This document shows, piece by piece, positions 34,962 to 36,966 of a stretch of 36,966 bases of DNA (positions are counted from its first letter, which is position 1; every line of letters starts with the position of its first letter). The DNA comes from Bacillota bacterium. GTDB lineage: Bacteria; Bacillota; Sulfobacillia; JAJZIM01. The notes beneath the pieces were generated by a model. It ran no database searches and was not told the origin of the DNA. It was given only the letters and a program-made list of their open reading frames with translations. The translations under genes were made by a program, and so were the position numbers. The stretch spans positions 1-36,966 of the forward strand of contig JAJZIM010000029.1 in assembly GCA_021810565.1 (NCBI GenBank), given 5' to 3'.

Positions 34962-34993
34962 AAAAAAAGAGGCGGGCAGGCGCTCAGCCCGCC
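34962..34993 (-). terminator. Strong rho-independent terminator after the ferredoxin gene
   Basis: On the minus strand GGCGGGC (34993-34987) pairs with GCCCGCC (34977-34971), with a 9-base loop holding the TGA stop of the ferredoxin gene. TC and then seven T follow (34968-34962). It isolates the ferredoxin gene from the sbcDC genes downstream, which must have another promoter that I could not pick out. Confidence 0.8.
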
Positions 34994-35370
34994 CGCCCCG
35001 CCTGCCGCTCCTCGCGCTCGCGTTGGTGGCGTTCCCGCACCGCGGCCATGTGAGCGCGCAGGGCCTCGGGGGTGGGCCAGGCCAGGCGCTGGACCGGCTC
35101 ACCCCGGCGCAGGTGCTGCTCCACGATCTCTTCCACCTCCCGGGGGGTCACGCCGGAGTACCAGGTGCCCTCCGGGTAGACCAGGACGTTGCCCGGGCGG
35201 TCGCAAAGGCCCAGGCAGCCGCAGGTGGTGAGCTTGACCTCGGGCAGTTTGGCCTTTTGGATGGCCGCTTTCAGTTGCTCGAAGAGGTCTTGGGAACCCT
35301 GCGTGGCGCAGCACTCGCCCTCCTCCTTGCGACGGGTGCACACGAAAACGTGGTGGCGAAAGGCATCCAA
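34984..35370 (-). CDS. Thioredoxin-like [2Fe-2S] ferredoxin domain protein
   Basis: A 128-residue protein with the thioredoxin-like ferredoxin pattern: HVFVCTRRKEEGECC at the N-terminus and TTCGCLGLCDRPGNVLVYPEG in the middle, where the cysteines at about C11, C20/21, C50/52 and C56 hold the cluster. GTWYSGVTPREVEEIVEQHL follows, as in the family. The final 30 residues are a basic, charged tail. ATG 35379 is only one base after GGAGG, too close for initiation; TTG 35370 has a 10-base gap, so I prefer it. Such proteins are electron carriers, sometimes subunits of hydrogenases or formate dehydrogenases; here it stands alone with its own promoter and terminator. Confidence 0.85.
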   Translation of the reverse strand: MDAFRHHVFVCTRRKEEGECCATQGSQDLFEQLKAAIQKAKLPEVKLTTCGCLGLCDRPGNVLVYPEGTWYSGVTPREVEEIVEQHLRRGEPVQRLAWPTPEALRAHMAAVRERHQREREERQAGRAG

Positions 35371-35402
35371 AATCGGCATACCTCCTTGCGGAATTTGGGG
35401 AG

Positions 35403-35431
35403 ATTATAGCGCGGGGGAGGAGGAAGGGCAA
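35403..35431 (-). promoter_or_regulatory. Sigma-A promoter of the ferredoxin gene
   Basis: On the minus strand TTGCCC (35431-35426), a 17-base spacer and a perfect TATAAT (35408-35403). The hexamers and spacing are identical to those of the promoter at 18197-18225. It predicts a leader of about 25 bases. Confidence 0.75.
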
Positions 35432-35587
35432 GGCCGGGAGCAGGAGCGCTCGCGAAGGCCCTTGGGCACGCGCCTTGCATTGAAGACCACCGAAGACCCC
35501 TCGGGAGGCGATCCGCTCCTCCCGGCGCAGCCCACCCCCCGGCGCTGACCGTAGGCAACTGAGTTTTGGCAATTCACGCTCGATTGC

Positions 35588-35617
35588 TTGCCGGGCGGGC
35601 GGGGTGGCGGGTATAGT
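35588..35617 (+). promoter_or_regulatory. Putative promoter of cooS
   Basis: TTGCCG (35588-35593), an 18-base spacer and TATAGT (35612-35617). It is the best candidate in the 350-base space before cooS. An inverted repeat GCAAT/ATTGC lies just upstream (35567-35571 and 35583-35587), which could hold another regulator. The start site would be near 35624. Confidence 0.5.
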
Positions 35618-35648
35618 GAGGGCGGACGCCTGGTTGCTGACCGAGAGA

Positions 35649-35666
35649 TTGAGAAAGAATTCACAA
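35649..35666 (+). promoter_or_regulatory. Rex-type operator, upstream copy
   Basis: TTGAGAA-AGAA-TTCACAA matches the Rex consensus TTGTGAA-WWWW-TTCACAA with a single arm mismatch and a G in the spacer. Rex is the NADH/NAD+-sensing repressor of anaerobic metabolism in Firmicutes. The site begins about 25 bases after the predicted cooS start site. Confidence 0.65.
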
Positions 35667-35753
35667 GCCCTGAGGGATCCAGCCGATTCGATGCCTGGCG
35701 AAAGGAGGAGGTTGCCGCCAGAAGCACAGACCCCGCGTTCCTTTACCCTTCGC

Positions 35754-35771
35754 TTGCGAACAATTTCACAA
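35754..35771 (+). promoter_or_regulatory. Rex-type operator, downstream copy at the ribosome site
   Basis: TTGCGAA-CAAT-TTCACAA also departs from the Rex consensus at only the fourth base of the left arm. Its last base is the first of AGGAGGT, the cooS ribosome site. The distance to the upstream copy is 105 bp, ten helical turns, as expected for binding on the same DNA face. Confidence 0.7.
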
Positions 35772-35784
35772 GGAGGTAAGGAAA

Positions 35785-36966
35785 GTGGAGCTGCGCAGCA
35801 TCGACCCCGCAGTGCAGGAGATGCTGGAACTGGCGGACCGGCTGGGAATCGAGACGGTATTCCAACGCTCGGAGCGGATCAAGGCCTGCCCCATCGGGCA
35901 GGACGGCGCCTGCTGCAGCATGTGCGCCATGGGGCCGTGCCGGCTGGTGGGCAAGACCGAGACGGGAGTATGCGGTGCCAACCGGGCGACGGTGGCGGCG
36001 CGCAACGTGGCGCGGATGGTGGCGGCGGGGGCGGCGGCCCACTCCGACCACGGTCGGGACCTGGCCATCACCCTGCGGGAGGTGGCCTTGGGGAAGGCCT
36101 CGGGATATCGGATCCGCGACGAGCGCAAGCTGCGCATGGTGGCGGGTCTTTTCGGCGTGAGCACCGACGACCGGCAGCTTTCCGAGATCGCCCTGGAGGT
36201 GGCGGAAAAGGCCCTGGCCGAGTACGGCCGCCAGGAGGGGGAACTGACCAACCTGGCCCGGGCGCCCCGCAAGCGATTGGAGATCTGGCGCAAGCACAAC
36301 CTCGCGCCTCGGGGCATCGACCGGGAGGTCGCGGAGACCCTGCACCGCACCACCGTGGGTACCGACCAGGACGCGGAGCACCTTTTGGACCAGGCCCTCC
36401 GGGTCGCCCTGGCCAGCGGCTGGGGGGGCAGCATGTTGGCCACGGAGCTGTCGGACATCCTGTTCGGCACGCCCAAGCCGGTGGCCTCACGGGCCAACCT
36501 GGGGGTGCTGGCCGAGGATCAGGTGAACATCATCGTGCACGGGCACGAGCCGACCCTGTCGGCGATGCTGGTGGATGTGGTGTCCGATCCGGAACTCTTG
36601 GCCTACGCCCGGAGCAAGGGGGCAAAAGGCATCAGCCTGGCGGGGGTGTGCTGCACCGCCAACGAGATCCTGTCCCGCCAGGGGGTTCCCTCGGCGGGTA
36701 ACTTCCTGCACCAGGAGCTGGCCATGCTCACGGGGGCGACGGAGCTGATGGTGGTGGACGTGCAGTGCATCTTCCAGTCCTTGGCGGAGCTTTCCAAGAA
36801 GGGGCACACCCGCTTCGTGACCACCTCGCCCAAGGCCAAGGTGGAGGGGGCGGAGCACTTCCCCTTCGACGAGGAGCACGCGCCGGAGCTGGCCAGGAAG
36901 CTGGTGCGCATGGCCATCGACAACTACCCGAACCGGCGGGAGACCTTCATCCCGCACCACACGGGG
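35785..36966 (+). CDS. cooS: Anaerobic Ni-Fe-S carbon monoxide dehydrogenase catalytic subunit, 5' part (cut by right edge)
   Basis: The first 394 residues of a protein usually about 620-670 long, open to the window edge. It interconverts CO and CO2 at the Ni-Fe-S C-cluster, passing electrons to ferredoxin. C35, C43, C44, C47, C52 and C63 (CPIGQDGACCSMCAMGPCR, GVCGAN) are placed as the D- and B-cluster ligands of CooS. HGHEPTLS, SLAGVCCTANEIL and DVQCIFQSL are C-cluster and active-site landmarks. GTG 35785 has AGGAGGT 8 bases before it. Whether acetyl-CoA synthase or a hydrogenase follows cannot be seen, so it could be the energy-conserving or the acetogenic type. Rex-like operators suggest redox control. 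Confidence 0.95.
   Translation, partial: MELRSIDPAVQEMLELADRLGIETVFQRSERIKACPIGQDGACCSMCAMGPCRLVGKTETGVCGANRATVAARNVARMVAAGAAAHSDHGRDLAITLREVALGKASGYRIRDERKLRMVAGLFGVSTDDRQLSEIALEVAEKALAEYGRQEGELTNLARAPRKRLEIWRKHNLAPRGIDREVAETLHRTTVGTDQDAEHLLDQALRVALASGWGGSMLATELSDILFGTPKPVASRANLGVLAEDQVNIIVHGHEPTLSAMLVDVVSDPELLAYARSKGAKGISLAGVCCTANEILSRQGVPSAGNFLHQELAMLTGATELMVVDVQCIFQSLAELSKKGHTRFVTTSPKAKVEGAEHFPFDEEHAPELARKLVRMAIDNYPNRRETFIPHHTG

Follow-up and report, generated by a model that had tools for sequence, protein, structure and literature searches.

Candidate Rex operators in the leader of a CO dehydrogenase gene of a member of the Sulfobacillia

Results

The DNA analysed here, called the window, is the entire contig C26 (36,966 nucleotides) of the home genome (G000), an assembly of 3.18 Mb with 99.4% completeness and 2.6% contamination. 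The window ends within a cooS gene that is broken off by the contig end after 394 codons and is not a pseudogene; because it is incomplete, its TIGR01702 score does not reach the cut-off. The leader of this gene contains a promoter-like pair, two Rex-type palindromes and a Shine-Dalgarno sequence (Table 1). The promoter-like pair (TTGCCG-18-TATAGT, 35588-35617) matches at 9/12 positions in the promoter scan, with 0.1 from shuffles of the region, and predicts a transcription start near 35624, which would place the centre of site 1 near +34 and that of site 2 near +139. On the opposite strand, a divergent gene for a thioredoxin-like 2Fe-2S ferredoxin (34984-35431, - strand) has its own promoter-like TTGCCC-17-TATAAT (35431-35403), away from the Rex-type sites.

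Table 1. Features of the cooS leader and the start of the gene, numbered from the first letter of the window
Feature	Position	Strand	Remarks
-35-like hexamer TTGCCG	35588..35593	+	Predicted cooS promoter, promoter scan
-10-like hexamer TATAGT	35612..35617	+	Promoter scan
Rex-type operator 1	35649..35666	+	TTGAGAAAGAATTCACAA; 1 mismatch to TTGTGAAN4TTCACAA; centred about +34
Rex-type operator 2	35754..35771	+	TTGCGAACAATTTCACAA; 1 mismatch; abuts ribosome site
Shine-Dalgarno GGAGGT	35772..35777	+	Read directly; kept in paralogue leader
cooS/acsA, first 394 codons	35785..36966	+	GTG start at 35785; TIGR01702 E=8e-118

Both sites fit the reference Rex motif used for mismatch scoring, TTGTGAANNNNTTCACAA (TTGTGAA-N4-TTCACAA, an 18-bp inverted repeat with a fixed 4-bp spacer). 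The right arm TTCACAA is perfect in both and the left arm is altered at position 4, to A in site 1 (TTGAGAA) and to C in site 2 (TTGCGAA). The spacers, AGAA and CAAT, are 3/4 A/T each, in keeping with the A/T-rich spacer of a Rex operator. The site centres, at 35657.5 and 35762.5, are separated by 105 bp, and site 2 ends directly 5' of the GGAGGT hexamer. These readings agree with a preliminary description of this DNA, which had reported two 18-mers at these positions with a perfect right arm and a single left-arm change at the same base, a centre spacing of ten helical turns (arithmetically right, 105/10.5), and one site just past the predicted start with the other abutting the ribosome site. 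A Rex operator is expected in or near the promoter of a redox-linked gene; site 1 lies close to the predicted promoter and site 2 far downstream of it.

The genome was scored by mismatch counts to the Rex pattern, with the reversed pattern as a control. In the window, the two leader sites are the only ones within 3 mismatches, with 0.16 expected from shuffles. Across the whole genome three sites lie within 2 mismatches versus none for the control, and all three precede cooS copies, the two window sites being the two best Rex-type sites of the genome. At exactly 3 mismatches, the 14 further sites in the genome compare with 13 in the control and are thus background, indicating that the Rex-pattern signal stops at 2 mismatches. 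The scan revealed no crowd of equal-scoring sites elsewhere, a pattern that the preliminary description had said would refute its reading. A 3-mismatch site before fdhA (C115:4694), examined as a possible additional Rex site, was set aside as no better than background; by eye, it lies ~60 bp upstream of the nearest -35.

The third site within 2 mismatches, TTGAGAACGTTTTCACGA (G000:C115:9932-9949), abuts the ribosome site of another cooS, and the protein encoded by this second copy is 95% identical to the window CooS protein. The two leaders align over the last ~35 bp only (operator, ribosome site and start) and differ everywhere further upstream; by position, the single C115 site is the counterpart of window site 2. 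A promoter scan before this second cooS found none. The gene sits behind an NAD-linked formate dehydrogenase operon encoding FdhA together with NuoF-like and NuoE-like subunits, in the arrangement fdhA-nuoF-nuoE-cooS. FdhA itself (L007:829-3540, G000:C115) has an in-frame TGA (CART-U-HAPT) and is likely a selenoprotein in which this codon is read as selenocysteine. C115 is a short contig in a bin with 2.6% contamination and could derive from a close relative; the recurrence of the site would still hold.

The preliminary description had called the window gene product a CO dehydrogenase. TIGR01702 supports a CODH catalytic subunit, and the gene neighbourhoods refine this assignment: the product is most likely AcsA, the CODH of CODH/ACS, because acsB adjoins the orthologous cooS in the relatives G001, G059 and G084 and because contig C4 of the home genome ends in an acsB tail beside acsC and acsD. 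A search of the assembly for the missing 3' half of the window cooS matched only two distant cooS copies. The window cooS and the C115 cooS break at the same codon 394 (C26 end, 36966; C115 end, 11144), and the C4 end (10280) falls inside the acsB tail next to acsC/acsD. The absence of the cooS 3' half and of most of acsB from the assembly is as expected if these form an unassembled repeat.

As the preliminary description had proposed to check, the home genome encodes Rex: there is a single rex gene, and its product is a full Rex protein by NCBIfam (NF003995, E=2e-76). The gene (G000:C8, L006:6448-7092) lies downstream of what look like genes for HdrA/MvhD-like and Fe-S/NAD-binding oxidoreductases and for a polyprenyl synthetase, and no Rex site within 3 mismatches is present in this neighbourhood (L006:1-7092). 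The nearest solved relative is Thermotoga maritima Rex (E=1e-46). Among the 12 DNA contacts listed for the T. maritima protein, 9 are identical in an ungapped alignment (R12, S33, Q46, R48, K49, G58, R60, G61 and Y64), the changed residues being E34, K43 and S52; the NAD-pocket residues N92, A96, Y100, D115 and K120 are kept in the same alignment. In the T. maritima Rex-NAD+-operator structure (7WB3), as described, Arg48 and Lys49 read three bases of the arm (G3, G5 and A6), the base contacts given do not include arm position 4, and the crystallised natural operator, ATTTGAGAAATTTATCACAAAA, has a TTGAGAA arm (PMC8836258). G3, G5 and A6 are intact in the TTGAGAA and TTGCGAA arms of the window. 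For Staphylococcus aureus Rex, much affinity is lost upon a position 4 change, and an A/T-rich spacer is required (PMC2883068). Since the position 4 change is tolerated in the T. maritima operator and harmful for S. aureus Rex, the window sites are probably of medium affinity, which might explain the presence of two of them in the window leader.

Comparison of cooS leaders among relatives, also proposed earlier, gave a divided answer. In G001 (same order; cooS 70% identical), where acsB follows cooS, TTGAGAATAAATTCACGA lies at -65 with 2 mismatches. In two members of the same class the site has 1 mismatch: in G084, where cooS and cooC are divergent, TTGTGAAGGACTTGACAA is located between them at -202, and in G059 a cooC-cooS-acsB operon has TTGTGAAGGATTTCGCAA 241 bp upstream of cooC. 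However, six rex-bearing class members (G058, G045, G027, G038, G015 and G002) have no site near cooS, and 80 cooS loci in named genomes, mainly of Chloroflexota and Actinomycetota, searched over 300 bp of upstream sequence, gave none within 2 mismatches. The link between the Rex site and cooS is therefore lineage-specific. In G005 and G092, from the same family as G084 and G059, neither rex nor a site was detected in genomes that are just 86-87% complete.

The class as such appears to use the standard Rex motif, as other members have exact sites in front of genes that, judged by sequence, look like typical Rex targets (NuoE/NADH-linked, ndh-like and Hdr-like). Position 4 variants of the motif number 22 in 151 genomes versus 6 in the control. 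In six genomes of family f8 (L231-L236), TTGAGAAN4TTCACAA with varying spacers is conserved where an MFS transporter gene begins; the changed arm is always on the far side, and these may be sites of Rex or of another regulator. Separately, TTGTGAAAATAATCACAA occurs four times within 2.5 kb in G001 (G001:C285:2099, 2617, 3507, 4538) and resembles a repeat family.

Discussion

The presence of one rex gene, the conserved DNA contacts of its product, the location of the best sites of the genome exclusively at cooS and the Rex-like sites in three relatives together make Rex control of the window cooS well supported by sequence, and we consider it likely that both palindromes are operators at which the single Rex of this genome represses cooS (acsA) at low NADH/NAD+. 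The lack of a site in G005 and G092, where no rex was detected, points the same way. The preliminary description had proposed that two operators exactly ten helical turns apart let Rex repress the gene by looping or as a double roadblock; Rex control of cooS is supported, the ten-turn mechanism is not, and none of the contrary findings that it had named (no rex gene, no conserved site in relatives, many equal-scoring sites at unrelated positions) was obtained outright, although the site is conserved in only some relatives. Rex usually has several targets, and the lack of any other good Rex site (within 2 mismatches) in this genome counts against the Rex reading, as do the position 4 change in one arm of both window sites, given the S. 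aureus data, the missing sites in the six rex-bearing class members and the 80 more distant cooS loci, and the part of the motif shared with CRP-type sites.

We suggest that at low NADH/NAD+ Rex-NAD+ dimers would occupy the transcribed cooS (acsA) leader near +34 and +139 and that bound Rex would block early transcription, with site 1 acting near the promoter and site 2 forming a further obstacle next to the ribosome site. A rise in NADH would lead Rex to bind NADH and leave the DNA, and CODH would be made, probably together with the product of acsB downstream; CO2 reduction via the Wood-Ljungdahl pathway would then serve as an electron sink. The positions +34 and +139 fit hindrance of early transcription and are not usual activator sites. 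In this model we infer binding, the response to NADH, repression, the promoter and the physiology.

The main alternative is that the palindromes are sites of a CRP/FNR-family regulator, CRP-like or CO-sensing, that reads TGTGAN6TCACA. The Rex motif contains this pattern, the genome encodes at least three CRP/FNR-type proteins (on C36, C111 and C1), one of which matches CooA structures among many others, and a perfect TGTGAN6TCACA lies at -75 of the cooS on C50 of the home genome and at -99 of its counterpart in G001 (C126). However, the inner A..T and outer T..A that are specific to Rex are missing from those two palindromes (CTGTGAGGCGCCTCACAT and CTGTGATATTTATCACAG), whereas the inner A..T and the outer TT are present in 6/6 acs-operon sites, these having been chosen by the Rex pattern, however. 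Moreover, each window site has one mismatch to TGTGA-N6-TCACA. The normal place of a CRP-type activator is upstream of the promoter, and the window sites at +34 and +139 lie downstream of the predicted one. In total, we regard this alternative as unlikely. CooA specifically was considered and rejected: its consensus is TGTC-N8-GACA (PMC7306483), and the window sites read TGAG/TGCG...CACA. The more distant cooS genes have their CRP-type palindromes 75 bp (TGTGAGGCGCCTCACA; G000:C50, L040:5159) and 99 bp (TGTGATAAATATCACA; G001:C126, L043:5811) before them. Since neither palindrome has the inner and outer bases specific to Rex, different regulators may act on the two kinds of cooS, the distant copy perhaps being under one of the CRP family.

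Given Rex at both sites, the 105 bp between their centres, nearly 10 x 10.5, would allow a DNA loop over ten helical turns with tight cooperative repression. We think this quite improbable: the second cooS copy, G001, G084 and G059 have one site each, so that neither spacing nor site number is conserved, published descriptions of Rex are of a homodimer, our search of the literature found no report of Rex tetramers, and an in-phase spacing within 1 bp is expected by chance in about 1/4 of cases. The single site in the paralogue and the relatives and the homodimeric state of Rex likewise tell against a double roadblock that depends on exactly ten turns, and we favour dimers that bind each site independently over a loop.

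An RNA structure of the leader at the ribosome site, in place of a DNA operator, would account for site 2 abutting the Shine-Dalgarno sequence and for a weak Rfam match (RF02924, 22 bits, below the gathering score of 36.7), yet it is very improbable, as the leader shows no stable fold and folds no better than shuffles (z = -0.03), an Rfam scan gave no family at gathering score, and site 1 and the G001 site lie away from the ribosome site. Chance palindromes, for which the low GC content of the region 35624-35784 (55% within a window of about 70% GC) might speak, are disfavoured and the least probable explanation of all, since the site recurs at the paralogue and in three relatives and, in agreement with the earlier claim that such a pair is unlikely by chance in a GC-rich genome, dinucleotide shuffling of the leader sequence (35380-35784), repeated 52,782 times, never gave two sites within 2 mismatches and gave a site within 1 once.

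Returning to Rex, predicted Rex sites before CODH genes and two putative sites before one gene are already known. In Parageobacillus sp. G301, the Rex consensus TTGTGAA-N4-TTCACAA is likewise predicted upstream of the CODH genes cooCSF (Ni-CODH/ECH), the expression of which tracks electron-acceptor limitation and not CO (PMC13077300); there, a single site serves a CODH tied to an energy-converting hydrogenase, whereas the window has two sites and an acetyl-CoA synthase-linked enzyme. Similarly, cooS of the CO-using thermophile Calderihabitans has a Rex motif, and Rex control of Wood-Ljungdahl genes in Clostridium is cited in the same work (PMC7306483); in contrast to the cooS copies here, which have the only good sites of their genome, that cooS also has a CooA motif and its Rex has many targets. 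The operator of T. maritima Rex, the closest solved Rex (7WB3), shares the TTGAGAA arm of window site 1 and belongs to another target gene (TM0201) and organism (PMC8836258). S. aureus ldh1 likewise has two putative Rex sites before one gene (PMC2883068), but these overlap the promoter or lie at most a few bases from it, whereas one window site lies at about +139, at the ribosome site. What is new is an acsA with an unusual duplicated operator, in a genome in which no other good Rex site was found.

Given that the strong Rex sites of this genome lie only at acsA copies, one may go further and propose that Rex is here essentially dedicated to CODH/ACS and that the two in-phase operators of the window leader act together, by roadblock or loop, to set a steep NADH threshold for Wood-Ljungdahl CO2 fixation; we hold this extension to be unlikely. 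The duplicated operator and the site shared with the second cooS behind the formate dehydrogenase operon offer simple test cases. If Rex control is true, the key CO2-fixation enzyme of a GC-rich lineage would be switched on by the level of NADH and not by CO itself, and the control of Ni-CODH genes by redox state instead of CO, recently proposed for CO oxidisers that evolve hydrogen, would extend to the enzyme linked to acetyl-CoA synthase.
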